Assembly: GCA_030144725.1 (NCBI GenBank)
Contig: JASKMD010000017.1
Span: 9,385,029 to 9,449,028 of the forward strand
DNA from: Haematococcus lacustris
Lineage: Eukaryota; Chlorophyta; Chlorophyceae; Chlamydomonadales; Haematococcaceae
Direction of reading: 5' to 3'
DNA: 64,000 nt
Both the position numbers and the translations under genes were made by a program. Below, piece after piece: positions 1-52,905 of this stretch (position 1 is its first letter; each line of letters opens with the position of its first letter). The notes under the pieces are model-generated. The model was not told the DNA's origin. It was given only the letters and a program-made list of their open reading frames with translations, and made no database searches.

Positions 1-2672
1 GCCTCAGCAGGCTGCTGCTGCTGCTGGGTCTTGGGTGGCTTGTCTCGCAGCCGCTTGTACCCCAGGCCAGGGTACTCCTTGCCCTTGGCTGGCAGCTTCC
101 CCTGCTCTGGCCAGTAGCACAGCTCCAGTGGGCGCCACCTGCTCTCCCCAATGCGCTGCATGTTCAGCGCTGCATTGCAGTCCCTGTCCAGCCACCTGCC
201 TGGCTGTGGGGCTGGCTTTGCCTTGGCAGCCTTGCCTTTGCCTTTGCTGGGCTCAGCTGCCGGCTCAGCCTTGGTGCGCTTGGTGCGCTTGGCTGGCTGG
301 GGAGTGCTGGGCCCTGGCTCTGAGGCTGCTGTCGGTGTGGCTTCCTGGCTGCTGCGTGGGGCCTGTGGGGGCTTGCGGGGGGCTACTACCGGGCACCACA
401 TCATGCCCCGCACTGGCTGGCCACGCCCCTGGCTCCAGGCTGGGCGCACCAGGCGAGGTTCCACCTGCCCTGCTGGTGGCTTCCTGCCTGCAGGCCTGGT
501 GGCACTGAGTTTGTCCAGCTCCTCACAGGGCTGCTGGCCATTCACTGCTGAGCTGACCCGGCTGGTGCGGTGCTCATCCACAAGCACCACCCTGCCCCGC
601 CGCTGGTCTGTGCCCCTGGGCCTGCACACCACCTTGCGGCAGGCACGCAGCACCGCATCAGCACCCCACCCACCCCCAGTGCCAATGGTAGCAGCGCCAA
701 AGAACACCACCAGCTGCTTGGCATGCCCATGGCGCTCCATGGACACCTCAGCCACCTCCTCCTCCAGCTGCAGCCATGCACACAAGGCACATACATGGTG
801 GCTGACATGGTGGCACCAGGTTAGGCATGGCACAGTCAACTACTCCTTCATATCATGCCCAACCCACCACCTCCCAGTGCCTTACCCTCCCTCCCACACA
901 CCTACCCACCCACCCACCCTCACCTTGTTGAAGAACTGCTCCAGCGCCCGGTCCTGGGCTCCGTACAGCCTCAGCCGCTGCCGTGCCCACTTGGGGTCCA
1001 GGTACAACTCACACACCGCATCCCAGGTGGCCAAGGTGACGGTGATGTGCTTCAGGTTTGCCTCCAGGGAGGTGCCGGCTGAGCTTGCTGCTGCCAGGTG
1101 CTGGAGGTGGGGCTTGATCGGTGCTAGCCACCGCTCAGTGTCACGGCGGGCATTGTTCAGGCCGCTGGAATGCTTCACCTGGCCCTTGGTCAGCTTCCAC
1201 CGGCGCAGCTGGTCTGCCATCAGCTGGCCTGACTGCGGATCCCACACCCCAGAGGCTGCGCTGACTGCCTGGGTGACGCCGGGGTCGATGCCCACCCCAA
1301 TCTGGGTCAAACACAAACTCACGCATCTCAGCTATGCCCCTGCCTATGGGGGAGCCCCACTGCATGAGCCGCTGCTGCTGCTGCACTTGGGTGGCTGCTG
1401 GTGCTGCTGCTGCTGGCAGCTGGGGGTGGGCCTGGAGGATGGGGAAGGGGGCGCGTGTAGTGCACGCACACGCTGACACCATCTGTGTCCACCAACCTCT
1501 CGAAAGCAAACTCCTTGTTACGGAGCTTCTTGGTGTCGAACCACCTGGCCCATAATGGCTCAGTGCTGGCTCTGAAGTGAATGCTGCCCGGGCACCTTGG
1601 TTAGGCCCAGCTGCTTGCACACCCCATGCAGTACCCTGCTGTCCACCTTGCTGAAGTGCACCCCCACCCTGGCCATGGGGGTGAGGGTGAAGGGGGGTGG
1701 GCAGGTCAGAACCCGGGGACCAACCCCACGCCTCTTGCCGCGCTTTGGCTGCCCTGGTGCGGGTGGGGTGGGGGGCTGCTGCCACCGCTCTAGCCACCGG
1801 CACACATGCACTGCATGGCGCATGCGGCAGGGTAGGGGCAGGGTGTCCTGCAGGGAGCCTTGCTTCTTCATGCCCAGTAGGCGGCGGTGCGTGTTGGCCT
1901 CCTCTATCAGGTCCACCACATGCCCCTCGTCCAGGGTGGCGGCCTTCAACTCCGAGCTCTTGGCGTTGATGCCATACCCGCACGCCATCCTGATGAACAG
2001 CTGCGCCTCCTCGCCACTCCAGCCTAGCTGGGCCCTGGCTGCCTTGGCGTACAGCTTGACAATGCGCTCTGCAGGTCAGGTCAGGTCAGGTCAGGTCAGG
2101 TCAGGTCAGGTCAGGTCAGGTCAGGTCAGGTCAGGTCAGGTCAGGTCAGGTCAGGTCAGGTCAGGTCAGGTCAGGTCAGGTCAGGTCAGGTCAGGTCAGG
2201 TCAGGTCAGGTCAGGTATAAGGTCAGGTATAAGGTCAGGTATAAGGTCAGGTATAAGGTCAGGTATAAGGTCAGGTATAAGGTCAGGTATAAGGTCAGGT
2301 ATAAGGTCAGGTATAAGGTCAGGTATAAGGTCAGGTCAGGTATAAGGTCAGGTCAGGTCCAGATCCAGATCTAGGTCCAGGTCCAGGTCCAGGGTCTAGT
2401 CACCACCATCACTTGCCTGGGTTGGAGTAATGCTGCTGCATGGCCACCGCCAGCTGCATGGAGCGTGCGTCGATGGTGTTGGCGTCACCCGCCAGGTTGA
2501 TGCTGCCCAGCTCCTGCAGCTTGGCCAGCAGCGCCTGGTTGCTGGGGTCCTCAAAGGCTGGCATGAGCATGCGGTGGCGGTGCCGAACAAGGCGCCGCTG
2601 CAGCTGGTTGTAGACTGTCTTGAAGTTTGGGTTGGCAAAGAACTTGCAGAAGTCTTTCAGCTGCCTCAGCAT
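1..2672 (-). pseudogene. Fanzor-type RuvC nuclease, family 2 (copy A), frame-broken, 3' end outside window
   Basis: Reads leftward. The first recognised coding block (2397-2672) is followed by an intron holding a pentamer array (about 2071-2396). A block then runs from about 2070 to 1560 and includes CPPPFTLTPMARVG and KVDSRVLHGV, the segment that precedes RuvC in Fanzor/TnpB proteins. Next comes FERLVDTDGVSVCVHY near 1500. RuvC-I is GVGIDPGVTQ near 1290. The exon ends at 924 and the next begins at 767 in the same frame. RuvC-II is VVLVDEHRTSRVSS near 580 and RuvC-III is LDRDCNAALN near 190, after a K/P-rich linker. All three acidic residues are present and mutually in frame from RuvC-I on. 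Between about 1600 and 1330 the reading frame changes at least twice with no plausible intron, so this copy is probably inactive unless these are sequencing errors. The stop lies left of the window. The assignment rests on motif order and on similarity to the other copies here. Confidence 0.75.
2073..2355. repeat. (AGGTC)n array with AGGTCAGGTATA variant units
   Basis: Pure 5-bp AGGTC units run from about 2073 to 2215, then a 12-bp derived unit (AGGTCAGGTATA) repeats to about 2350. The array fills an intron of the copy A nuclease. On the minus strand it reads CTGAC-CTGAC and leads directly into the CAG acceptor at about 2071, so it forms the polypyrimidine and branch-point region of that intron. 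Confidence 0.85.
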
Positions 2673-2989
2673 CGCCGCATCTCAGCCACGTGGGTTCTAT
2701 TTATGCTACGCACATCCCCGGATAGAGCACTCAGTAGGCTACGGGGTGAAGCTTTTTTTTGAAGTTTCGGATGCCCTGGCGACTCTGCAAGGCCCCACAA
2801 GGTGTGTAGGCCATAGTTACATTACCTTGCTGGGCAGTTTGTGTCCAGTCTCTCACGCCCGCCCTGCGCTTGTGTGACGAGCTCGTGTTCATCTCCGCTG
2901 TGGTCCCCTGCTGCTTCTCAGCTGCAGGAACAAGTGGATGGGTGAGCAGCCCTCGGGGTGCAGCAGGAGGGGTGGGCAGCCCAGGGGCA

Positions 2990-3125
2990 ACACCAGCACC
3001 AGCTGCCTGCTGCTGCCAGGGGGGGCAGCAGGAGGGGGGGGCAGGTCAGGGGCGGCACCTGCACCAGCTGCCTGCTGCTGCCAGGGGGGGGCAGCAGGAG
3101 GGGGGAGCAGGTCAGGGGTCGGGGG
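2990..3125. repeat. two-copy GC-rich tandem repeat of about 65 bp
   Basis: Two near-identical units, about 2996-3058 and 3060-3122, each contain CACCAGCTGCCTGCTGCTGCC followed by a G-rich tract. No convincing gene is seen from 2680 to 4100. Open frames here are GC-rich shadows without motifs. Confidence 0.6.
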
Positions 3126-3547
3126 GCGGGGCTGGGGCTGGGAGGGGTTAGGAGGGGCTGGGAGGGAGTTAGGTCACGCCAACGTATGTTCCCACAGGCG
3201 TACTTAATAAAATGACGTGCTTATTTCTCCAACAGCTGTGTCGTTGGGTTAGGAACAAAGTTGACACTCGAAAGTCTGGAAAGTTATAGTGGTCAGCTCA
3301 CAGCATGCCGATTTGTGCAAGGGGGTCCCTTTTTCTGTGTGGCTGGCTAGAGAGACCTCTTTCCATTCGCACCTCGCTGCAATGTCGAGTGTCAACTTGC
3401 CCAACGACGGTCCTCCGACACCGCCTGCACCAAGAAAAGACTCGCGAAGCCCGGCCCGGCGGGCTGAACATTGGATGTACTTCCTGCTCGATAGCAGTCG
3501 CAGTCCAATCACTGATGCCGCTACATACCAGTTTTACAACTAATGGT

Positions 3548-3745
3548 GAGCAGCTCAGATGTGTCCGCGATCGCTTGCGCCGGCATGGCCTCAAACACTA
3601 GAACTGACGCGCCGCTTGCCAGAAGACGCGCAGTAACTCGCAGCTGCCAATGTGACAAACGCTATCGAAAACGGTGCAGTATTGATAGAGTATTTGCATG
3701 AAGATTACCAACCCCATGGTGGGACCACCTGAGTTACACCGCGAT
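3548..3745 (+). repeat. dispersed repeat, copy 1 (second copy at 20128-20285)
   Basis: The segments around 3555-3595 and 3698-3740 match 20135-20175 and 20230-20270 (shared strings CGATCGCTTGCGCCGGCATG and GCATGAAGATTACCAACCCC). The middle has diverged by indels. Both copies could encode a short peptide starting ATGGCCTC, but the reading frames differ, so I treat it as a dispersed non-coding repeat of unknown type. Confidence 0.55.
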
Positions 3746-3898
3746 TTCAATGAGGCGAGGCGAGGCGAGGCGAGGCGAGGCGAGGCGAGGCGAGGCGAGG
3801 CGAGACGACCATGTGTGCATCCTGGCCACTGATTTCAAATGTCGACGATTCCTGGCCACACATGGTCGTCTCGCCTCGCCTCGCCTCATTGAAATCGC
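3741..3898. repeat. long inverted repeat with GGCGA-rich arms
   Basis: The left arm (3741-3817) starts GCGATTTCAATGAGGCGAGG and runs through about ten GGCGA pentamers to ACGACCATGTGTG. The right arm (3856-3898) is its reverse complement with only about three pentamers. About 38 nt separate the arms. It would form a stable hairpin and may be a small foldback element; only the pentamer count differs between arms. Confidence 0.75.
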
Positions 3899-4084
3899 AG
3901 TGTTAGGGACCTAGGTTAGGGACGGTCACTCACCGGCACCACGCGAGCAGTTACGCGCTCGTTACCCTGTTATCTGATGTAGTTGGGTTGTTTGGATCTT
4001 AAACAACCCTCACCCCCTATCACGACCTCCTAGATGAGCCAGACGGCCTCCTTAACGGTCTCTTGATCGCCAGTAAAACCCACC

Positions 4085-4098
4085 TATATCATAAACAA
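4085..4098. repeat. 14-bp direct repeat, left flank of Fanzor copy B
   Basis: TATATCATAAACAA here is repeated exactly at 7367-7380 on the other side of Fanzor copy B. Bases outside the 14 differ. It may be a target-site duplication or a site of flanking homology. Confidence 0.5.
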
Positions 4099-4108
4099 CT
4101 CCTGAACC

Positions 4109-4330
4109 CCACAGCCCTCATGCTACACCAAAATAAAGCATGAGTTGGAATCGAACCAGGCTGCGAGCTCATCATTGTAAAGGCTACTGACAGTGTGCCT
4201 ACTGCCCACTTCAGCTCAGCCTTCTGGTGTGTGTGCCTGTTGCCAGTGCCTGCGCCTGTGCCACACACATCCCCTTTGTTAGGGGTTCATTGTTTTTTTT
4301 GTTGGGATTGTCTTGAGCTGTAGCTGGCTA
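4109..4330 (-). ncRNA. candidate omega (guide) RNA / right end of Fanzor copy B
   Basis: This non-coding segment lies directly 3' of the copy B stop. It is conserved with the segment 3' of copy C (18096-18342) and the remnant at 52680-52800, although copy C is badly decayed. Conserved pieces are a CCCCT/AGGGG stem (4271-4275 with 4281-4285) whose loop varies between copies; a block around GGCACACACACCAGAAGGCT; a block around GTAGCCTTTACAA; and a terminal hairpin with perfect 8-bp arms CTCATGCT/AGCATGAG (4117-4124 and 4137-4144). Similarity stops near GGGCTGTGGG. In TnpB/Fanzor elements the guide RNA is encoded at this place and its guide is the DNA just beyond the element end. The RNA itself is inferred, not seen. 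Confidence 0.55.
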
Positions 4331-7222
4331 TTGCTGCAGCTTGCGCTGCCACTTGAGCAACAGGGGCTTGTCGGCTATCTCCACCCACTCCTGGCCTGGC
4401 TGGCCTGGCTTTGGCATGGCTGGGCGGTTAGTCCAGTAGCACAGCTCAGTGGGATGTGGCCCTGGGCCGACTGCACAGCGGCGGATGTTTAGCGCGGCTG
4501 AGACGTCCCGGTCATAGAACCTGCACATGGGTGTGGGAGATGCATGAAGTCACCCCATGCGCCATGTCATGTGGGATATGCTCATGGCATGCACATGTGT
4601 AGGATTGGGTCTGTGCTTACCTGGTGATGTTGTTGATGCTTGTTGAGCACATCAGGCCCCGGACTTGGGAACGCTTTGCCATGCTTTTCACTGGCCGCAG
4701 CCACCTGCATGGACACATGGGGCAATGCACATTTGTAAGATGTCTCATCTTGACCCTACCTAGTCACCTTGATTCCACCACCTCCCAGCACTGCCAACAA
4801 CCCCCTATCCTCGCCCCCCTCACCTGAAGGACTCAGGCGGCGTGTCAAGGAGGGTCTCGCTGGGGGTGTTGTCGGCTGAGCTGACCCGGCTGGTTCGGAA
4901 CTCGTCCACCAGCACCACACGCTCTGGCCTGAACTGCTTCACTGCCTCCTTCTGCATCTGGCTGACAGGGACACCCCTGCAGCCAATGGTGCCGCTGCCC
5001 TTGAAGCCAGCTGCCCCATAGGCCAGGGCCAGGATGCGGTCCGGCCACAGCTTCTTTGCCTGCTTGTTGACCTGCAGCCACATATAGCAAGGCACAGTGG
5101 CACACATGTGTAAGGTCAGGTATAGCAGTAGCAACAGAGGCAACAACAGCAGCAGCTGGCTAGGTGAGCTGACTTTGGTTGGCTGCTGCCTAGCTCGTGG
5201 GTTAGGGTTCTTGGGCCTTACCTTGGCCCAGAACGAAGCAACCACGCGCTTCTTGCCACAGTACAGCCGGAACTTGGCGTTGGCCCAGCGCTTCTTCGAG
5301 ACCTCGGCCCACATGGCGTCGTACGTCTCCAGGACGGTGTCGGCGAACCGCCGGTATGAGGCCAGCGAGCTGGGCTTGCTGCTGACCTGGGACAGGGCTG
5401 TGAGCTGCGGCTTCACCTTGGCCAGCCAGATCTTCGTAGCCTGGGCCTGCCGCGTGATGCCACTGTCCCGGTAGTACTGCCCGGCGGTTAGCGTCCAGTG
5501 GCGCACTGACACCACTGAGCCGTCGGCGCTGCGCTCCTCGTGCGCCACCGTGGCCATATTCGTCTTGCCCGGGTCCACGCCAAGCCACTCCGCGTGGAGG
5601 TTGGCCAGCGGGTTTACTGCGCCCATGCCCTTGGCCATCCGCGGCAGCTTTGCGGGTGGCGCTGCAGGCTTGGGCCGCAGGAACATCACGCTGATGGCGA
5701 CTCCATCGGTGTGCACGACCTGGTCGAATCTGTGATTGGGGCTGGCGAGCTTTTGGCGGCGAGGGTCAGGCAGCAATGCATCCCACCGGCTGGCCACCTG
5801 CAGCCACCATAAACACCACCAAGGCACCTCATCTGAAGGCTGCCTGAAGGCTCACAAGGCAGGCACAAGGCAGTTGACAACACACATGGCAACTGACTGA
5901 GCAAAGGCTGGTACCTGACTGCAAGGAGCACTCACCTTGCTGTTTGAAGGCCCTTCGATGTAGTGGCCCGGCCTCGCTGGGTCAGGTAGGGCACCGTTCC
6001 TGAACTTGTCCAAGGAGGTGACCCCTGCCTCCGTCAGCACCCCCAGCATGCCGGCGTCACTCATCAAGCCGTAGAGGACGTTGGTGTCGATGAAGATGTG
6101 CCGAGCCTGGCACTTGCTGGTGGGGGTGAGGGCATAGGGAGTGGGGGGGCGGGGGGGCCTTGTCGACAGGTTGGTGGGCTGAGACTGCTCCCAAGGCACC
6201 ATATCAAGCTGCCAGGCTGCCATGGCTGCCTCCATTTCTCTGGTGGTGTGCACCGCATGGCGCAGTAGCCGGCCACGGTTTGCTGGATCCTCCACCCAGT
6301 CATCATCCACCTTCTCCCCCTCCCCCAGCTCAAGCAGGCCCCGCTGCAAAGCCACCTCAGCCTGCATGGCTGCAGTCACCACCACCCCACCCTCCCCCAC
6401 CAGCCAGGTGACCTCCCAGCCGCACACCATACGGCGCACGTAAGTGCACTGCCGCTTGGACCAGGCTGGCAGGTGCCCACCAACCAGCCCCCTCACCCCG
6501 AATCGGCGCTGGTGCTCGTTGGTGCCCAGCAGGACCTTGGCCCCGGCCAGGGACACTGACTTCTTCAGCCTGCCAGCGAAGAGGAGTATGAGGATGTTGC
6601 TGAAAGCTGTCTCCAGCTGCTTGCCGACTTGGTCCACCATGTTCGTGTCGGACAGGTGGCGGGGGATAGCTTCGAGGCGGGCACACAGGTCGGGGTGCGC
6701 TGCCAGCACGGCAGCGACTGCTGCACTCGGCTGAGTATTCTCGCCCTCTCCGGGCAGGCCGCGGCACAGCTGCAGGAACAGATTCCTGCAGCTCAGGTTC
6801 GGGATGTCTGCTGCGGAGACTGGGATGTCTGTGTCTGTGTATGACAGTGGCTGGCCTTGCGCGTCAAGCTGGTCGGCTACGTGCAGGGTAAACAAGTCGC
6901 GCACGAGGAAGCCCAACAGCAGGCTGCCAATCACCCCTCGCTCGCTGATGCCCTTCACTCGTGGGCGCACAGCCTTGTCAAGGAAGGCATCCCAAAGCGC
7001 TTGCGGAAGGTGGTCGATGAGGTGGTCTAACTTGGCCTTTCTTGCGTGGAACGTATTGTCTCTGCTGCGGGCAGCGCGGGCCTCTCCTGAAGCCTTCCTT
7101 TTGCGCTGTGCCTCGGTCAAGTCGGGTTGGCCTGCCTCGTCGCGGTCAACTATGTCGAAGTCCGGGTCCTCCGGCACTGCTCTAGGCCCACCCACACCGG
7201 TTCGTCTCTTCTTCCTCGCCAT
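4328..7222 (-). CDS. Fanzor-type RuvC endonuclease, family 1 (copy B), apparently intact
   Basis: Five exons read leftward: 7222-5936, 5797-5222, 5071-4824, 4704-4621, 4520-4328. All have GT-AG junctions and compatible phases, and the exons sum to 2388 nt (795 residues plus stop). I chose the start MARKKRRTG at 7222 because it opens a basic, NLS-like N-terminus shared with copy C. Residues 1-429 form the N-terminal half, including YALTPTSKCQARHIFIDTNV. HTDGVAISVMF lies near 460. RuvC-I is WLGVDPGKTN (Asp near 504), RuvC-II is VVLVDEFRTS (Glu near 678) and RuvC-III is FYDRDVSAALN (Asp near 737). This motif order is that of TnpB/Fanzor RNA-guided nucleases. The zinc-ribbon region is reduced to one Cys (RGLMCSTS). 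Host-type introns exclude a bacterial contaminant. Activity is inferred from intact motifs only. Confidence 0.82.
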
Positions 7223-7299
7223 AAACAATAACAACGCGAGGCAGCAACATATACTAAGGATTTTCGGGTTTGTCACACACATGTCTACATTCAATTAGA

Positions 7300-7348
7300 C
7301 AATTCTGCCAAGCCCAGGCCAATTTCACCGATGTCACGGCGCGAGTAA
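7300..7348 (+). repeat. 49-bp duplicate of a receptor-kinase exon segment
   Basis: This stretch matches 7743-7791, inside the first exon of the downstream receptor kinase, at all but two positions. It lies between the start of Fanzor copy B and the 14-bp direct repeat at 7367-7380. It may be a captured host fragment within the element or a relic of a truncated paralogue into which the element inserted. Confidence 0.7.
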
Positions 7349-7366
7349 AATTAAACTATAATAAAG

Positions 7367-7380
7367 TATATCATAAACAA
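7367..7380. repeat. 14-bp direct repeat, right flank of Fanzor copy B
   Basis: Exact partner of 4085-4098 (TATATCATAAACAA). The two copies enclose the nuclease gene, its 3' tail and the 49-bp host-exon fragment. Confidence 0.5.
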
Positions 7381-7538
7381 AGGAAGATGCAATTGAATAA
7401 TGGTGCATTAAGGAGACGACATGAAAAACAACACAGAAAGTTCTGAATGCTCTGACTGACCTATGAGCTTGTGCCTAGGAGCTCGTGCACCACCGGCCTT
7501 TATAAGCTTGTCATTAATCCCAGGCCGAGGACGCGCAG

Positions 7539-10500
7539 ATGAGCTATTTTCTCTGGCTGTGTCTGCTATGGGCCACTGTCCGTAGCCAATCGATGATTAA
7601 TCTCGCGTCAGACATTGCAATCCTTACGGAGGCAGATGGTATACGCGCGGTGTTGACGACGTCAGCATTTCAGCTCCCTGGCGTGTGGAACGCAAGCACT
7701 CTGGTCTTGGAAACCCGCACAAACCTGACCACGCTGGGTGCTCAATTCTGCCATGCCCAGGCCAATTTCACCGATGTCACGGTGCGAGTAACACGGTTTT
7801 CCCTGGCTTTTGGTTCGGATGGCCATTGCAGGCCAGCTGCCGCCAAGTCGGACTTAGAACGCCGCTTTCTCTTAAGCTCTGCTCTTCTGTACCTGATGCA
7901 GGTGTCCAGTTCTTCAATAGTGATCGGTGATTGGAGCTTTCGAGCACAGGCCATCAAAAGCTTGACCATTACATGCAGTGGTGTCACCTCTACCTCCGTG
8001 GTCTCACAGACAAGATGTGCGGCAGGGCATGTGAGCAGCAATAAAACTTTTGCAGCAACCGTCATGGGTTTACAAGAGGGCCATGACAACATCACAGTGT
8101 TTCTGGCACCAGAAGCACCGTTTTGGATGCTTCCTTCTCATGGATGGGGTAACACTTCCAAAGAAGCAACCACTGCCCCGGTGATTATCAGCAAGAACGT
8201 TGTCTGGAGAGGTGCTGATCCTGGCAGCTACACATGGCTGGACTTTCAAGCAGCTGGGGCGCAAATCCTCATTCGTAATAATGCCACCCTCCTTCTCTGG
8301 TAAGCCCACGATAGACAGTACCAGATCGGTTGTCCATGGCAATGCTTGTCTCACAATTGTACATCTGATTTGCTTTGCAAATGCAGGGGCCTGGGCCTGA
8401 ATAATTGTGACATGGCAGCACCGTACACGTTCCCTGCGTCATCAATGATTGCATTCTACTGGAATTTTGTGAGGTAGGCACATACATTTTTTTCACTGAA
8501 CACACACAAGCACCACTCCCAATTGTCCCCAAGACCTTTCTCCCTGACAATGCATTCCACATTGAAGCCCGTTGTGGTCCTGCCTGTGCCACTTGACCTG
8601 TTTCCTGCTGCAGCCATTGCTTGGGTAGCTATTGTGAACAGAACCCCTTGTACTCTGCACCCTCAACCACCTTCCTGATGTCTTGCATGGAAGGGATCGC
8701 GGGATTCAATGGCTGTACCACACCGCAATGAACGACAGTCAGTAGGCTCCCTCACCCCCGTTTCACTGCCCCTGGCCTACCCACCCATACATCAGCTGAC
8801 ATCATGCAGCTGGCACAGGCAAGGAACACTGGAACCACTAACTAGCGCAATAGACTGGACACAGGGAGAGCGACACCTTGCTTGCTAGGGAGTTGAGGAC
8901 TATGTGTGAGTAGGCACCTTCATGAGCTGGGAGCTGATGGGAGCCATCCAGTCTGCTACATTCCATGCCAGGTGTTGAGTCATGCCTTCCCTCACCACAC
9001 CTTGGAGTCAGGGTGCGGTTGCAGTGGCCATGCGCTGTCGTCTGTGCTGCAGGAATGGCACCTCCACAGTGCGGCTGACGCTGCAGAACGTCCTGCACAT
9101 TGCCTCACCAGACACCTACTCTTACCTTGCTTACTGGTACGTAGCTGGCTAGTGCACTGCCTGCACATTGCTTGCACTCGGCCCATGCTGGGCCGTCACC
9201 CTCCTGCCACTTGCACTACTGAAGGCACGTCAATGGCGCATGTGCTATGGCTAGGCACAGCTCAGTTGCATGTGTCACCATGTACTGCATGCTGCAGGTA
9301 TGCCCGGTACCTGTCTCCCATCTCCGTCATCTCTGACTCTGCCAACTGGATCTCAGGGGCGAGCAACTTCAGGCTAGAGCGTTTCACTGTCAGTACGTGG
9401 GAATGTATGGAATGTATGGGAATGTATGGCTGCAACTCGCTCATAACCTCAGTAGTTTGCGGCTTCGGCTCAGATCACTCAAGGTCCCTATCCCTTTGGT
9501 TACTCAGTTTGATGCCCAGCGACCTTTGCTCTACAGCAATCACTTGCCTGGCTGCACATGTCCTGCTGCACATCACCACATACACCTTCACCTGACCGGA
9601 CCTGCCCTGACCTTCCTCCAGCATTTTATACTGTCCTTCCCTGATGGCTGCTCCTCTCTGCTGCAGCCTTCACTTGTCTCACCTGTTTCTCTACAGCTGT
9701 CTGTTGCCTAAGCGTCAGCCTTCATGTCAATCCCTAGTTGCGGCCAAACTTACTTCCTTGCCCTGATACTGCAGCTCGCCTTGTCACCCAATGGCAGCAA
9801 CACAATCGTGGTCGCAGTCAAGCACTACAACAGCTGGTTGACCCGCAACGTCACCATGATCCCGGTGCGTGGGCAGTCAATGTCCGGTTTGTGAACCCAG
9901 CTGGCACAACGCCTGCCTGACGCACAGGGTTGGAGCACCCCTGCCCCTTCATACTACCCCACCAGTACATTGCACAGCCACTTGTTCCATCGTATCACCT
10001 TTGCCACCGCAGGGCAGCTTGGACAGCAAGCCATGGCCCTTGCTGCCAAGCCTGCAACACACAGGCATCCTGGACTGGGCTGTGGACCCATTCACGGCCC
10101 TGCCTTCTGCAGCCACAGCCAGCACACTGGGCAGGTTACAGGCGTCCCTGGCAGCTGCAGCAGTGCAGCCATATGTGATCCAAACCAGTGACCTCCAAAT
10201 TCGCACTTGCACCAACTCTAGCTCCAGCGTTATGACCCCCCTCGCAAAAAACAGCGGTGGGCGGCAACTTCTCGCCTCCCGCCCCATCCCCTTCTCATCT
10301 CCAGTGCCTGGGCCCTCCTGCATCCCGCCCATAAATGTCCTAGCCGATGCCACCATGTGGTGGCAGGGCCACCCCTTGCTTAACTTGACAGCTGACCTTC
10401 AAAACCAGGCTTCCCTGCTCAAGCTGAACACCACCACGCACATCACCATCCGCAACCTAACGCTCATGAACCTCGCTTACCAGAACCATGACAGCCGAGG

Positions 10501-13500
10501 AGAGCCGCACCCACTGGCCAGCTTCAGTGCCGCTCTGTGGGCCATCGAGGGTGTGAGGTACGGCCTGCCAGTGATTCCCTGAGCACATGCTCAGGATCAG
10601 GAGCATGCTCAGAGGCCTAGACTGCCCGACTCCAGGGATGTGTTGCCATGGCATCCGTTGGTCACACAGCACTCCACCCTGCACACCCTGTCCTGGGTTG
10701 CTGCATCCCTGCTGTCGCAGTGACGACACCAGCATCGAGCTGGACAGGGTGACCCTGGTGGTGCCTCCCGTGGAGTTCCGCCTGCTCCACATCTTTGCAA
10801 CTGGCGCCAGCTCCTGTGACTGCACCCTACCCGCACAGACTCAAGCGCTGCTTGCGCGCTCGCTGAACTCCGCCTCAGTGAGTGCTGCAGCACTGGGCAG
10901 GGATGTCACCTGTTTTCATGTTGGTATGGAAGTGTTGCGGCTAGGCAATTGCCACGTGTTACAAACTGCCACATGTTACAATTGGATTGTGGACTGTCAT
11001 GTCATCACCATGTGACTCACTCCCATAGACAGTCGCCCTTAGACAGTCTGGACACCCCTTCAGTAAATGTGCCAGGTCACTCCCAGGCACTCACAGCTTC
11101 AGATAGCCACTGTTCAAGCGTGCTGTTGCTTTGCCTGCTGACATGAACCTGTATCCTGGCCGCAGCTGACTAGTGCCAGCAATGACACACTTACCTTTGC
11201 TATCATACATCTGAGTCGTTGGAGTGGGACGCGCGTGACCATCACAAGCAACGATGAAGGCCTACCGTACGAGCTCGTGCTCGACTCACCCTTGAACACC
11301 ATCGTCAGTTTGCCAGCCCCTGCCAGCAACGGCTCGAATGCTACCCTGCGCTGGGCAGTCCCGCTTGCAGTGCTGGGCTCCTTGGTCATTGCAGGGCTGG
11401 GGCTGGGTTTGCTATGGCGAGCTAGACGCAAGGCAGCCACAAGCTCCTCTCCTCAGCAGCCGGTAAGATATCATATCTATAAGATTTGTGCACGTAAAGT
11501 CCACGCATGCAGCAGGCACTATGCAGTGGCAAGGTCACAATGGTATCTCCTCCTTTGCCCTGTTTGCATGCTGCCCCAGCCAGGCGACACCTCTGGTAGG
11601 CTGTTGCTTGCAGGCCCAAGACCAGATAAGCTGCACAGTGCACCTGGCTAAGCAGGGCTTGGCCAAGCCATTTTGCCGCCATCCTGGCACTCTAGACTTT
11701 GGCAGGGCCAACGCCGCCGCCCACGTCTCTCTGCTTCCACACTTTGATGATGGCGACCCTGAGCTCACTGCCAAGGCCGAGGAGCTGGTCATGGGCGCTC
11801 CAGACTGGCACCTGCGCCACCAGGGTGCTACCAGTCCTCCACCCACTGTGGACATGTCTGGTGCGCTGACCTCTGAACACATGATGGACATTGACACCGT
11901 TCTACAACAGGTAAGATCACGCTTTATGATTGACCACTGGGCTGTTTCAGCACTGTCACATGCCATCTCTGAGGCGTGCCAGCTGCCCCACACCTACTTG
12001 GGTGGTTTAATCAGGCAATCAGACAACACAGCCCAGTCCATCTTGACGGCGTAGCCCTACAGGGGTTTTAGGGGGGGAAAAGGAGCTTTGGAGAGGTTGG
12101 GAGTCTGGGAGGAGGTGTCAGTTTTGAATTGTGACTGCCCCTAACTTTGCCACCTAGCTTGTCGACACATGAGGGGGGGGCTCTGCATACATGTCTTTGG
12201 CTGCGTTAAAGCAGCTTGGCGACCTTGCTGACCCACCTTGCTGACGTGACGCACTTTTGCTGACCCACCTTGCTGACGTGACTCACTTTTGATATGGCTG
12301 CATGCGCGCGGGCATATTACAACTATCAACATGTGCAATGGCAAGCATTGGAGTTAAACACAAGTATGTGCCTCACTGCACTCTGCTCCTCCCCCCTACC
12401 ACTGGATGCAGGTCAGCACCACAGAAGGTGCGGACTCAGCCTCTGCCAGCCAGCTGGTCATCAGTGGCGTGTTGGGCGTAGGAGCTAATGCCGTTGTGTA
12501 TGAAGGTATGCCTCAGCATCATCCAATGGGCACAGGGCCAAGTATTTCACAGGTCAGGTGGACACCACACCATTCTACCTGTTGTTGTGCGTCGAGAGTG
12601 TGACATGTGATTTGTTCATGTGCCTTGGCATTCATGCAGGCCTGTGGAGAGGCATCAGGGTAGCTGTGAAGTGCATGCTCTTCCAAGAAGCCCGCTCCAA
12701 TGCCAAGCGGCAGGCGCTGCAAGAGGCTGCCATCAACTCAAGGTGTGCCGACCTACATTGTGTGGTGAAGTGCAGTACAGGTGCAGTGCAGGTGCAGTGC
12801 AGGTGCAGTGCAGTGCAGGTGCATATACAGTCATAGGTGAGGTGGCTGCTACTGCTCTGTGTGTGTGCGGGACTGTTGTTCATGTTCATGTGCGCCATGT
12901 CTATACCCCCAACTGCCCTGTTGTTGACATCTCCAATTTCCTTGTTGGCTGCTGTCTGTATGCAGGCTGGCTCACCCCAACATTGTGAACACCTTCACTT
13001 TTCAGCTGCGGCCTGTGGGCAGCACCATCTCACCAGACCAGACTGAGCAGCAGCTGCTGGAGTCAGGGACCATGACCATCGCAGAAGAACAGGAAGTGGC
13101 TGGCGACTGGAAGATGTAAGTCAAGGCTGGAGGTGTACAGGTGCTTTGCACCTGCTCGGTGCACAGCTGTCAGGCCTGGTGGTGTCAGGGCATGTGGTGC
13201 CGGTGTGTGGTGCAAACGCTGCTGTACTGGCTGCTGGGCACCCACCAGGTACATCATCCAGGAGTACTGTGACGGCGGCACCCTAAAAAGCGCGGTGGAC
13301 TCTGGCGCCTTCAAGCTCGACGGCCACACCCCTGACATGCTGACAATAGTGCAGGTCGGTTCAGCTGGCTGGTTGATGCACCCATGTTTGTCTGCTGCCG
13401 CTGGCTCAGCACCCGGTTAACCTAGGACACCAAGAAGCAGATGCAGTGTGCACCTCCCTAGCTCGCTCTCGGTCCAAGTATCAACCGCCTACGTGGCCCG

Positions 13501-15159
13501 TGTTTAGAGTGTTGTCGAGCCAGTGCCTGACATCCTGTGCACATGCCTGCCGAACAAGACAGTGTAGCAAGCCGGGCCCTGTTGCTCCTCCTATGGTGCA
13601 GGTTGCCCTGGACATTGCTTGCGGTCTGCAGCACATCCACAGCAACAACATCATCCACGGGGTGAGGTGGCTGCAATGATGTGGGGGGTGCAAAGCCTGT
13701 GTGGGGTGCAAAGCAGCATGGCTCCCTGGCCATCCCTGGTTGGCAGACGTGTGATGGTTTGAGAATGGTGGCGCACACCAGGTGCTCCCAGCCGGTACAG
13801 CCTTCATGCAGCCCTTCCAGACACATCAACACATTCCTAGTGTCATCATCACCACCATGACATCCCCCCATACCTGAGGTGTGGCGGGCTGCTGCTGCAC
13901 AGGACCTCTCGCCAGCCAACCTGCTGCTCAAGTCAGAGGCCGGTCGGCCAGGCTGCCTCAATGCTATAGCAAAGGTGAGCGCCTCCACAGTCGAGCATGC
14001 TGGGCAGGTGGCCGCATGGCTGTGCAGTGTCAGAGGCTGATGTGCAGCAGCGTGCTGGTGTGTGCAGGTCGGGGACTTTGGACTGTCGCATGAACACCAG
14101 GAGGGGCAGACCCATGTCTCCAACAAGCGTCAGGGCACACCTTACTACACTGCGCCTGAGGTAGGCAGCAGCAGCAGCAGTGGTGGCAGCAGCAGCAGAG
14201 GCCGCCACTGCAGCAGCAGCGTCAGCAGCAGCAGCAGCATGGGCATGGGCATGGGCATGCATCATCTCGCCATGAGTCAATCAAGACTGAGCTGTGGAGT
14301 GTCCTGAGCATGTGCTGCAGCGCAAGTGCCCTGTTGCCAAACAGGCTCTGTAAACATCATCAAGCCAGTTCACATCCAGGCCACCGTGCCCCTGGCATTG
14401 TAGGTGCTGCTGGATGGGCACATGACTAAGGCTGCGGACATCTTCAGTCTAGGGGTCATCCTCCACGAGCTCTACAACGGCAGGCCTGCATGGCGCTGGC
14501 GACCTCCCACCCTTGCTGCACCTACTGCACGCATTGGTGCCGTGAGCCCAGCTGCCAGCCAGCCTGGCGGCGGCAGCGGCCAGACCCCTCCTGTTTTCCA
14601 CAACCCCGCCAATAGCAGTGGCAGCGTCGGCAGCAGTGGCACCAAGGGTGGGCCCGCTGGCAGCGACCAGGCCTGTCCCATGTCAGGGACTCCCATGAGC
14701 ACCCAAACCGGCAGCTCCGGCGCTGGCTCTGGCTTCTCGCTGCCCGCTGCTGGCCCTGAGCAGGGTAGGCACCTGGACAGGAGCGACATGGCACTTAAAG
14801 CTGGTGCTGGTACAGCCACGAGTGGGGCATTCCTAGACAGTTCAGGAGGCGTGCCACCTGCCTCGAAAGTGTCGTGCACATCAACGGAAGCCAGCCAGTG
14901 CTTGCTGGACCATCAACAAGCTCGAGCAACAATGAAGGCCTTGCAGCGATGGCTACTGGCGCCGGAGAAGATGCTCGCGAGTTGCCCACTTCCCTTCCCC
15001 AGCCAGTGCCCTGCCTGGTATGTAGGGCTGGCCTCAGCCTGCATGGCATCTGTGCCTGAGGCACGGCCAAAGCTGTTCGATGTCATTAAGCTCCTGCTGC
15101 TCCACCACCAGCTGCTGCTAGCTGAGCACTTTGCCTCGTCGCCCATCGGACCAGCCTAG
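7539..15159 (+). CDS. receptor-like protein kinase (TKL-like), single-pass membrane
   Basis: Multi-exon gene. Readable exons: 7539-8299, 8387-8473, 8615-about 8730, 9053-9136, 9298-9392, 9775-9864, 10013-10557, 10721-10877, 11166-11462, 11614-11910, 12412-12505, 12640-12742, 12966-13115, 13249-13354, 13602-13661, 13903-13974, 14068-14160, 14404-15159. The first exon opens with a signal peptide (MSYFLWLCLLWATVRS). The ectodomain has many N-glycosylation sequons and no domain I recognise. The membrane segment is AVPLAVLGSLVIAGLGLGLL followed by basic RARRK near 11360-11430. Kinase motifs in order are GVLGVGANAVVYEG (P-loop), RVAVKCM (Lys), YIIQEYCDGGTL (hinge), IIHGDLSPANLLL (catalytic loop), VGDFGLS, GTPYYTAPE, AADIFSLGVILHEL and PEARPKLFDV. 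The final exon carries a Gly/Ser-rich insertion. A TTTATAAG sequence lies 39 bp upstream of the start. The frame in the third exon and between 9393 and 9774 is uncertain, so an exon may be missed there. The catalytic Asp and Asn are present; the usual Arg before Asp is Gly. Confidence 0.8.
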
Positions 15160-15568: not shown

Positions 15569-16306
15569 CAATAGCATGTGGTTTGTCGAAGCAGCCAAAC
15601 CTCGACCTGTGGTGTGGATGCTGCTGCTTGTGCGAGCGCATGATGTGACGACCATGCTGCTGCTTGTCCATGCTGCTGACGTGCGGCTACCATTTCACAA
15701 CTATTACTCCACAGTTTGCTAGGTGCCTGCCATGGTCATACACTCTCCTGCACACTCTGCACACAGCTGAGAAAGGTCCACACACGGTACAGGGGATCAG
15801 CAGGGCTGACGGGACAGGGCCAAGGATTGGGTGAATGAGTTCAGGGAAGATGAAGAGTACGCGATAGTGCTGGAAGCAAAACGTTGTGCATAACCGTCTT
15901 ATGTGACACCGTGAGATGTCTTGCATTTCTAATTTGATTGAGGCTCACCATGGCGGCTGCTTTGTGGTAGTGCCCACCTTGACCACCTTGCTTTGTGGTA
16001 GTACCCACCTTGACTGTCATTGGTGAGTCCTCTAGCTATTTCCATCTGCTTCGGGGGCGCGTCGAGTTGGCATAGTGATGCAGGTTTGTCATTGCTCGTC
16101 GAGGTGCTGGCTGGCTTCCCTCCCCCACTAGATCGGGGTCTCCTCCAAAGGCAATAGTGGACCTAGACGGAACCTAATCCAATCAAATAGCTGGTGGAAG
16201 GTGTGACTGCTGATGTTATTTTGTTAATGATGATGTGGCTTACACCGCTTAAGCCGTCAGCCGTTAGTGCAAACAAACAAAACTAACAATTGTTCGCGGC
16301 TTAAAG
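15160..16306. other. intergenic; no gene recognised
   Basis: No coding signal is seen. It holds the probable 3' flank of the receptor kinase, a CA-dinucleotide run at 15538-15565, and AT-richer DNA from about 16180 that leads into Fanzor copy C. Confidence 0.5.
15538..15565. repeat. (CA)n microsatellite
   Basis: About 14 uninterrupted CA units, followed by GGTCA. Confidence 0.9.
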
Positions 16307-18098
16307 ATGTTTCGTATGGCTAAAAAAAGACGAACCGTCCCTAGGCCAGTGCCAGAGGACCTGCCCGCGAAAGGGACACCACACACCACGGCAGGAAATG
16401 TAAGCTAGCCCACCTCATCGACCACCTGGCGCAAGTTCTTTGGGATGCCTTCCTGGCCGACGCGGTGCAGCCACGAGTGGAGGCCATCAGCGAGCGGGCG
16501 GTGCTCGCCAGCCTGCTGTTGGGCTTACTCGTGCGCGGCTTGTTTACCATTCACGTAGCCGACCCGCTCGGCCTGCACGACCAGCCCGTATACACAGGTG
16601 GTGAAGCCGCAGCCAAGCAGCCATCCCGGACCTGAGCTGCAGGAACCTGTTCATGCAGCTGTGCCGCGGCCTGCCCGGAAATGGCGCGAACACACGGCCA
16701 AACGCAGCAGTGGCTGCCGTGTTGGCAGCGCACCCCGACCTTCGCGCCCGCCTCGCAGCAATCCCTCGCCACCCCTTAGACACCAACATAATGGACCACG
16801 TCGGGAAGCAGCTGGAGACAGCTTTCAGCAACATGCTCACGCTGCTCTTCGCTCGCAGGCTCAAGAAGTCAGTGTCTCTGGCTGGAACAAAGGTCCTGCT
16901 AGGCACTAACGAGCACCAGCGCAGGTTTGGGTTTAGGGGGCTGGGTGGTGGGCACCTGCCAGCCTGGTCAAAGCGGCAGTGCACCTATGTGCGCCGCATG
17001 GTGTGCGGGCTGGACGTCAGCTGGCTGCTGGAGGACGGTGGGGTGGTACCGACTGCAGCCATGCAGGCTGAGGTGGCTTTGCAGCGGGGTCTGCTTGAGC
17101 TGAGGGAGGGGGGGCGTGAATGATGGATGATGACTGGGTGGAGGATCCAGCCAACCGGGGCCGGCTGCTGCGCCATGCGGTGCACACTACCAGATGGAGG
17201 CAGCCATGGCAGCCTGGCAGCTGGATATGGCAGCAGGCTGAGCTCACAAACCCTGGGCTGTTGCCCAGGCCCCCCGCCCCCCCACACCCTATGCCCTCAC
17301 CCCCACCAGCAAGTGCAGTGTTCGGCATGTCTTCTTTGACAGACGGGGCCTCTACGGCATGATGCGTAAGACGGCATGCTGGGGGTGCTGACGCGGATTG
17401 GCTAGGCGTGGACCCGGGCAAGACCAACCAAAGTCAGCTCATGCTCTTACACCTGGCCAACTGCTGTTGTTGCTGCTGTTGCTGCTGCTGCTAAACCTGA
17501 CCTTACTCATGTGTGCCATGTGTCTTATGTGTGGCTGCAGCTCATCAAGCAGGCCAAGCAGCGGTGGCCGGACCGCATCCTGGCCCTGGCCTATGGGGCT
17601 GTTGGCTTCAGCGGCAGCGGCAGCATTGGCTGCAGGGGTGTCCCAGTCCCAGAGTCAAGGTGGCAGGGTAGGATCAAGGTTGGGAAGGTACGAAAAATCT
17701 TACAGATGTGCATTGCCCCATTTGTCCATGCAGGTGGCTGCGGCCAGTGTACAGCGCGGCGAAGCGTTCCCAAGTCCGGGGCTTGATGTGCTCAACAAGC
17801 AACAACATCAGGTAAGCACTGGCCTGGCACTGCACATGGCCGCAACATATCCCACATGACATGGAACATGGGGTGACTTTATGCACCTCCCACACCCATG
17901 TGCAGGTTCTATGACCGGGACGTCTCAGCCGCGCTGAACATCCACCGCTGTGCAGTCGGCCCAGGCCCACGCCCCACTGAGCTGTGCTACTGGGACGGCC
18001 GCCCAGCCATGCCAAAGCCAGGCCAGCCAGGCCAGGAGTGGGTGTACTTGCGTGACAAGGCCCAGCTGCGTAAGTGGCGGCGCAAGTGGCGGCAATAG
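16307..18098 (+). pseudogene. Fanzor-type nuclease, family 1 (copy C), decayed
   Basis: Close relative of copy B in the opposite orientation. It starts MFRMAKKRRT at 16307 (second Met at 16316). The N-terminal half is recognisable (16400-17100, for example KRQCTYVRRMVCGLDVSWL) but is frameshifted, with a stop near 16400. RuvC-I survives as WLGVDPGKTN near 17400, but the rest of exon 2 is deleted. The exon with KQRWPDRILALAYGA (17540-17650) ends early, so RuvC-II (VDEFRTS) is missing. The last exons are preserved: WLRPVYSAAKRSQVRG, LMCSTSNN and FYDRDVSAALNIHRC, with the stop at 18096-18098. It cannot make an active nuclease, yet its 3' non-coding tail is well conserved. Confidence 0.85.
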
Positions 18099-18342
18099 CC
18101 AGCTACAGCAAGACAATCCAAGAAAGCAAGATACCAAACCCCTCACAAAGGGGATGTGTGTGAGGAAGAGCTATAGAGTAGGGTAGAGCTCTTGCTAGTA
18201 GTAGACCTGGAGGCACACACACCAGAAGGCTGAGCTGAAGTGCGCAGTAGGCATACTGTCAGTAGCCTTTACAACAACTGCCTCGCAGCCTGTATTTGAC
18301 TACAACTCATGCTTTATTTTGGTGTAGCATGAGGGCTGTAGG
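18096..18342 (+). ncRNA. candidate omega RNA / right end of Fanzor copy C
   Basis: Homologous to the tail of copy B. The CCCCT/AGGGG stem is at 18139-18143 and 18149-18153, with a loop different from copy B. It has an extra stretch of about 45 nt near 18160-18205, the shared GGCACACACACCAGAAGGCT block, and the terminal 8-bp-arm hairpin at 18306-18313 and 18326-18333. Similarity to copy B ends at about 18342, so the flank from 18343 would be the guide position. Confidence 0.5.
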
Positions 18343-18559
18343 TATTAGAGCTTGTTGGAGGCAGCCCGTTATAACTGGTTAAAGGCCAACCGTACAACTT
18401 CCCTATTCCTGAGTGACACGACTGGAATTTTCTCGTTTAGCACGCGCACATGTGTGGATTGCACCTAGGGTTGGGGTGAGAGGGGATGTGAAGGGGTGCG
18501 AGGCGGTCGGAGTGGGTTAGTCATTTCTGCAAGGCGATGTCGGTCCATCAACAGCATGA

Positions 18560-52636: not shown

Positions 52637-52678
52637 ACACTGTAGCCAAAGATCCCTACACTGTAGCCAAAGATCCCT
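52637..52678. repeat. 21-bp tandem duplication next to Fanzor copy D
   Basis: The unit ACACTGTAGCCAAAGATCCC plus T occurs twice in tandem, abutting the hairpin end of copy D. Confidence 0.8.
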
Positions 52679-52679
52679 A

Positions 52680-52905
52680 CAGCCCTCATGCTGCACCAAA
52701 ACAAAGCATGAGTTGTAATCAAACACAGGCTGCGAGCTCATACAACCCACACACATCCCCTTTGCGAGGGGGTTGATGTTTGTTTTTGTTGGGATTGTCA
52801 TGCTGTACGCTCAGCGGTACAGCTCAGTGGGGCGTTTCCCTCGGGCGACGGCACAGCGGCGAATGCTCTGCGCGGCTATCTTGTCCTGGTCATCCGGCCT
52901 GCGGT
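52680..52905 (-). pseudogene. Fanzor family 1 remnant (copy D): 3' tail and last codons
   Basis: Minus strand. Codons at about 52816-52905 give a diverged RuvC-III and tail (DDQDKIAAQSIRRCAV then KRPTELYR and stop), homologous to YDRDVSAALNIRRCAV of copy B. Downstream, the CCCCT/AGGGG stem is conserved (52757-52761 and 52767-52771; loop changed) and so is the terminal hairpin (52685-52692 and 52705-52712). The middle of the tail is deleted. It lies in the upstream region of VFL1. Confidence 0.75.

Follow-up and report, generated by a model that had tools for sequence, protein, structure and literature searches.

A zinc-finger-less Fanzor1-like gene in a multicopy mobile element of the green alga Haematococcus lacustris

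What does an intron-containing gene that recurs in many copies in the green alga Haematococcus lacustris encode, and what carries it? The gene lies at 4328-7222, on the minus strand, of a 64,000-nucleotide stretch of contig JASKMD010000017.1 that is here called the window, and a first-pass annotation had described it as an apparently intact Fanzor and a candidate active RNA-guided nuclease. Our analysis adds three things to that description: the zinc finger is absent, the mobile element in which the gene sits has ends that could be defined, and the window holds more Fanzor-like copies. From its sequence, we file the protein as a zinc-less member of the Fanzor1 clade, outside the strict published definition of Fanzor1. 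The reading that we favor, with modest confidence, is that of a RuvC nuclease of the Fanzor1 clade whose TNB region no longer has its zinc finger, and which is carried by a one-ended element that was recently mobile; the 3' end of this element is constant and its 5' end variable.

Gene model and family placement

The gene consists of five exons, which join into a stop-free frame of 795 residues followed by TAG (2388 nt coding).

5936..7222, minus strand: exon 1, residues 1-429, the N-terminal half
5222..5797, minus strand: exon 2, residues 430-621, with TDGV and RuvC-I GVDPG; D504 codon at about 5573-5575
4824..5071, minus strand: exon 3, with RuvC-II VDEFRTS; E678 codon at about 4901-4903
4621..4704, minus strand: exon 4, within the stretch of the TNB region expected to bear the zinc finger; C723 is the sole Cys at the four positions
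4328..4520, minus strand: exon 5, with RuvC-III FYDRDVSAALN; D737 codon at about 4505-4507; the stop codon ends at 4328

Introns 1 to 4 measure 138, 150, 119 and 100 nt, and all four run from GT to AG with compatible phases. The exons, boundaries, phases and length given by the first-pass annotation were borne out by a re-reading of the sequence and by P0007 (QJQ45_004276), which also has 795 residues, is 96% identical to the window protein across residues 430-770, and represents a cluster of 16 member sequences. The proposed splice sites are supported by the sequence and by agreement with annotated relatives. Intron 2 is stop-free in the frame that read-through would use, and its retention would therefore leave translation running. 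It is hardly credible that a non-coding repeat has been read here as chance exons. The lack of any profile match above the cut-off for the window protein would suit such an artefact, but annotated relatives share the length and residues of the window protein, a model of P0007, albeit weak, gives a fold match, and the ratio of nonsynonymous to synonymous substitution rates (dN/dS) among copies is below 1. The same-length relative, together with 24 full-length matches in the genome, argues that the gene model is not due to chance.

The motifs also occur in the order first claimed, as VHTDGV, GVDPG (RuvC-I), VDEFRTS (RuvC-II) and FYDRDVSAALN (RuvC-III). The Fanzor1 signature set out in PMC10711439 comprises the DPG of RuvC-I, a rearranged Glu in RuvC-II, six residues ahead of the first CxxC position, and the TDG of the WED domain. 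The window protein has GVDPG with D504, a position that is D in 104 of 112 proteins of its family (family A); E678, followed by FRTSRV and then by S685 at the first CxxC position, with E in 109/115; and VHTDGV with D460, conserved in 95/103. The RD of RuvC-III is present as YDRD (D737, in 97 of 105), and the catalytic triad is complete in 82 of 98 proteins, among relatives that, in the sample, reach down to about 53-56% identity. The D-to-TS distance lies inside the 125-275 of PMC3627910, and the DPG-to-Glu distance of 171 lies outside the 120-160 of the TnpB expression (PMC10711439).

Structure comparison identified Fanzor1 as the closest fold, with 8-13% identity in the structural alignments. 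The structure check that the first-pass annotation had proposed thus returned a Fanzor fold, but from a weak model (predicted local distance difference test score, pLDDT, 53) that was made of P0007 and not of the window protein. A first AlphaFold model was unusable (pLDDT 37.6). Because of the DPG/rearranged-Glu/TDG signature and the fold of the P0007 model, a Fanzor1 relationship of the window protein is supported, and the Fanzor identity proposed earlier stands on these two grounds; the search against TnpB/Fanzor profiles gave no placement by itself. A Pfam search of the spliced window protein returned a single match, GUN4, under the cut-off (E 0.082), and PF07282 matched five of ten relatives below threshold and nothing in the genome at E<=0.001 (six candidates scored). 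In the NCBIfam and PHROGs searches of the ten relatives, too, all matches were sub-threshold; two relatives matched TIGR01765 ("transposase, putative, N-terminal domain"), which we take to be a TnpB-type model. A PDB search by phmmer and by sequence profiles A2, A3 and A4 retrieved no Fanzor, and none of the 17 pattern matches of A2 in viral contigs was confirmed. The 268 family-A protein matches include 120 that were listed, all from H. lacustris.

The departure from Fanzor1 lies between RuvC-II and RuvC-III. The motif that Bao and Jurka call strictly conserved (PMC3627910) has a C4 zinc finger in this interval, and the window protein has 'SSA...RGLMCSTS' in its place. The four zinc-finger positions are Cys in 0/114, 0/114, 74/106 and 0/106 family-A proteins; two or more Cys occur together in none of 105. 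Among the 120 proteins taken per family, a CxxC was found in one of the 83 family-A and none of the 88 family-B proteins in which the interval from RuvC-II to RuvC-III could be delimited (family B, 30-34% identical to family A, is described below). Lacking the zinc finger, the protein is placed here in the Fanzor1 clade as a zinc-less relative, but not among Fanzor1 proteins as strictly defined.

Ends, copies and movement of the element

The ends of the element emerged from a comparison of its copies, both inside the window and within the surrounding 220 kb.

4096..7367, minus strand: complete mobile element of about 3,272 bp, flanked by target site duplications
7368..7377, minus strand: 5' target site duplication TTTATGATAT, following TTTG
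4086..4095, minus strand: 3' target site duplication TTTATGATAT, following GAGTTG, the end of the element
4117..4144, minus strand: 3' hairpin CTCATGCT/AGCATGAG, 28 nt, 21 nt from the element end
7300..7348, no strand assigned: 49-bp filler in the 5' end of the element, 96% identical to 7743-7791 in the neighboring gene

The constant 3' end of family A comprises the hairpin and 21 further bases, terminating in GGTTCAGGAGTTG at 4096. Because TTTATGATAT stands directly outside 4096 and again at 7377-7368, the element spans 7367-4096; including TTG and one A that follows, 14 bases are shared. Similar duplications flank two further family-A copies (TTGCTGGGAACTGGGC and GTTGCATTACGGCT) and three of family B (GGCTGAGATGCGGCG, GGCTGAAGGGTTCTTTT and GGGCTGACACAAGT), and TTTG precedes the duplication in two of the three family-A copies. 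The duplications are 8-13 bp long, or 14-17 when bases common with the element end are included. Among 15 ends, counted with element ends fixed after the first look, six share 14-17 bases and nine do not: 10-11 are shared at B27k, B203k and B38k, 8 at c228k and B13k, and none at c203k, c190k, c53k and c34k. The count covers copies with an intact and clear 3' end, and so leaves out c143k and c262k of ten family-A copies, 253k of eight family-B copies, and family-B matches that stop earlier. As a control, 14-25 shared bases occurred at 1.2% of 4,000 random non-tandem places (2.65% with no upper limit); an earlier control, at 5.0-8.7% for at least 14 bases, was inflated by tandem repeats. At all six ends the repeated string starts inside the terminal three to six bases of the element, and the target therefore matches the element's own 3' end: TTG, TTG and GTTG in family A, and GGCTG, GGCTG and GGGCTG in family B, where a shorter, 11-base repeat also has CTG common to target and element end. 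An element with terminal inverted repeats was considered and rejected, as none of the 25 longest inverted pairs, out of 82 in 1-14000, is formed by the element's ends. With its target duplication, defined ends and many copies, the gene resides, as Fanzor1 genes do, in a eukaryotic transposable element.

The genome has 838 places that match the 28-mer of the family-A 3' hairpin with at most one mismatch, and 3,206 that carry a 26-mer of the family-B 3' end; the reversed control patterns of both words occur at none. A 29-mer of the family-A RuvC-I occurs at 130 places, so that 3' ends exceed coding cores about six to one, a ratio to be read with the caveat that subfamilies may keep the two words unequally well. 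When 40 of 2,240 candidates for the family-A 3' end were scored, the window copy included, they showed 95-100% identity along 220 or more of the 228 bases, and of 40 scored among 3,288 candidates for the whole gene, 24 at other places span all 2,895 bases at 93-97%. These many near-identical 3' ends and full-length genes show that part of family A has spread recently, over many contigs. In eight evenly spaced 10-kb chromosome samples, family-A- or family-B-like sequence was seen in five, once as a mere 34-base match. Constraint at the protein level is visible. Compared with three other copies, the window gene gave dN/dS values of 0.48, 0.59 and 0.45; compared with a family-B copy, it gave 0.75. 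All four of these copies contain stops.

Separately, four of the 24 full-length copies lie on a small contig (G000:C151) at about 5.1-kb spacing with identical scores, either a tandem array or an effect of assembly.

Further Fanzor-like sequences of the window are as follows.

1..2690, minus strand: family-B Fanzor-like gene with TDGV, GIDPG, VDEHRTSRVSS and WLDRDCNAALN, running past the window edge
16300..18354, plus strand: second family-A copy, degenerate, with in-frame stops and a short GVDPGKT piece left
52668..52877, minus strand: family-A 3'-end fragment, 5'-truncated

The family-B gene stands in tandem with the window gene in the same orientation and has a frame change near 1563-1600; its family ends 3' in ...GACAAGGGGGCTG and is matched by 686 proteins, the 120 listed being all from Haematococcus. 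In the second family-A copy, residues of about 396-614 were absent by tblastn. Further divergent copies in the evenly spaced chromosome samples, at L026:641-1108 (42% to family B) and L023:6523-8328 (42-67% to family A), hint at additional Fanzor-like subfamilies. At L019, about 7068-7215 (C64 near 9212096), a family-A variant with a clean 10-bp duplication has a longer 3' end with extra bases before the terminus GGGTTCAGGAGTTG. Just past the element's 3' end, at 3736-3903, lies a foldback of two 38-bp arms that are 95% complementary and rich in GAGGC repeats. On the other side, at 7518-9600 (plus strand), open frames resemble a multi-exon gene with a signal-peptide-like beginning, MSYFLWLCLLWATVRS; this is the source of the filler. 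Several annotated H. lacustris Fanzor-like proteins also bear unrelated Pfam domains (P0010, P0027, P0039 and P0118, for example), which suggests that element genes have been merged into host gene models; in the alga's annotation, many genes of these elements seem to pass for host genes, either ordinary or fused.

How does such an element move? Target-primed copying and one-ended transfer of the Helitron2 type are about equally likely. It is quite possible that it moves as a short interspersed element does, by target-primed reverse transcription in trans, in which the enzyme of a long interspersed element would recognize the 3' hairpin and the last 3-6 bases of the RNA would pair with the nicked target. 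The constant 3' end, the excess of 3' ends over RuvC-I sites, the variable length of the target duplications and the 5' filler all suit this mechanism, and priming is favored by the agreement of target and 3' end that both families show. The introns kept in copies, as in the window copy at 16.3-18.4 kb, do not favor priming, since the template then was not spliced mRNA. A tentative alternative is that the element is a non-autonomous Helitron2 that moves through one-ended rolling-circle transfer, the mechanism put forward for CRe-1, 2 and 3 of Chlamydomonas. The 3' hairpin, 3'-end excess, duplications and filler fit this, and TTTG ahead of the duplication is also found in a CRe variant. However, the hairpin stops 21 nt from the terminus, farther in than the 20-30 bp described for Helitron2 3' ends, with anything upstream of it at least 49 nt from the terminus, and family B inserts after GGCTG. 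One could also envision that a zinc-less Fanzor ribonucleoprotein nicks the target after the bases matching the 3' end (TTG; GGCTG) and that the RNA is copied from its 3' end, the scaffold serving as the template. This would fit the rule shared by two unlike 3' ends, the intron-bearing and 5'-truncated copies and the target duplications, but we consider it very improbable, and it is just as far-fetched that a target opened by the nuclease made the zinc-less lineage abundant.

Predicted function

The most likely function of the protein, by analogy, is RNA-guided cleavage with a guide from the 3' end of the element, which is established logic for TnpB and Fanzor (PMC10432273, PMC10711439).

4096..4327, minus strand: candidate guide-RNA (omega RNA) scaffold, from the stop codon to the element end, proposed from its position only

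According to this published logic, which is not a result of the present analysis, the sequence immediately outside the element (TTTATGATATAGGTGGG...) would act as the guide, the nuclease would cut empty target sites bearing a TTTG/GTTG-like motif followed by the guide sequence, and repair off an occupied copy would bring back or spread the element. The region 4327-4096 folds, and its hairpin is conserved. Three observations weigh against guided cleavage: the zinc finger is lost, no compensatory pairs were found in the family-A 3' end across nine copies, and an Rfam search of the 3' end gave no match. An active RNA-guided nuclease, the candidate of the first-pass annotation, is possible, given the intact triad and near-identical copies, but its zinc finger is gone and its guide RNA is putative.

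Could the protein instead be a Fanzor1 derivative that is no longer a guided nuclease, and now a DNA- or RNA-binding factor or a passive passenger of an element that spreads by other means? The zinc finger is missing in families A and B alike, stops occur in all four other copies used for dN/dS, several 3' ends carry no gene, and 33-77 of 331 positions exceed the three catalytic ones in conservation. We think that this is rather unlikely, because the triad is complete in most relatives even down to the lowest identities sampled, dN/dS is below 1, and Fanzors tolerate departures: GtFz1 is active with Asn as its third catalytic residue (PMC11423790) and has a smaller TNB. If the zinc-less Fanzor1-clade protein is an active nuclease, Fanzor cutting would be possible without a TNB zinc finger, which bears on the engineering of smaller editors, and the many near-identical native copies and target sites would make guide and target motif predictable and open to testing. 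With families A and B, Haematococcus offers a system for studying the causes of Fanzor spread in algae and a possible contribution of the nuclease to mobility.

Relation to known systems

We found no prior account of the family or of its zinc-finger loss among the papers listed by the literature searches, which exclude most subscription papers and a Fanzor survey published in Science Advances in 2023; among the matches listed for Fanzor and Haematococcus, the alga is named in other contexts. The text of the H. pluvialis genome paper gives 50.8% transposable elements with no mention of Helitron or transposase (PMC10400597), and passages on relatives of Chlamydomonas name Helitron2 elements and do not mention Fanzor (PMC8226300).

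The window protein resembles Fanzor1 (SpuFz1, GtFz1 and PpFz1) in its DPG, rearranged RuvC-II Glu, TDG in WED and RuvC-III RD, in its closest fold and in having a eukaryotic mobile element as carrier, and it differs in having 'SSA...RGLMCSTS' instead of a C4 zinc finger and in its low identity (8-13%) in the structural alignments. With TnpB and Cas12f it has in common the RuvC fold and the sub-threshold PF07282 matches of its relatives. As to abundance, the red alga Cyanidioschyzon has about 150 Fanzor copies (PMC3627910), and in Auxenochlorella, according to a brief description, the most abundant repeat encodes a Fanzor (PMC12633428), so that there, too, a Fanzor element tops the repeats of a green alga. 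The closest parallels, compared by description, are the Fanzor1 elements CRe-1, 2 and 3 of Chlamydomonas reinhardtii (Bao and Jurka 2013, PMC3627910), likewise from a green alga: CRe-1 has five exons, and these elements have copies that are truncated 5' but intact at the 3' end, target duplications that vary in length, additional sequence at some 5' ends and a TTTG pre-target variant. In contrast, the pre-target bases here are those of the element's own 3' end, GGCTG in family B, and the 838 and 3,206 3'-end places of the two families compare with about 150, 70 and 35 loci of the CRe elements.
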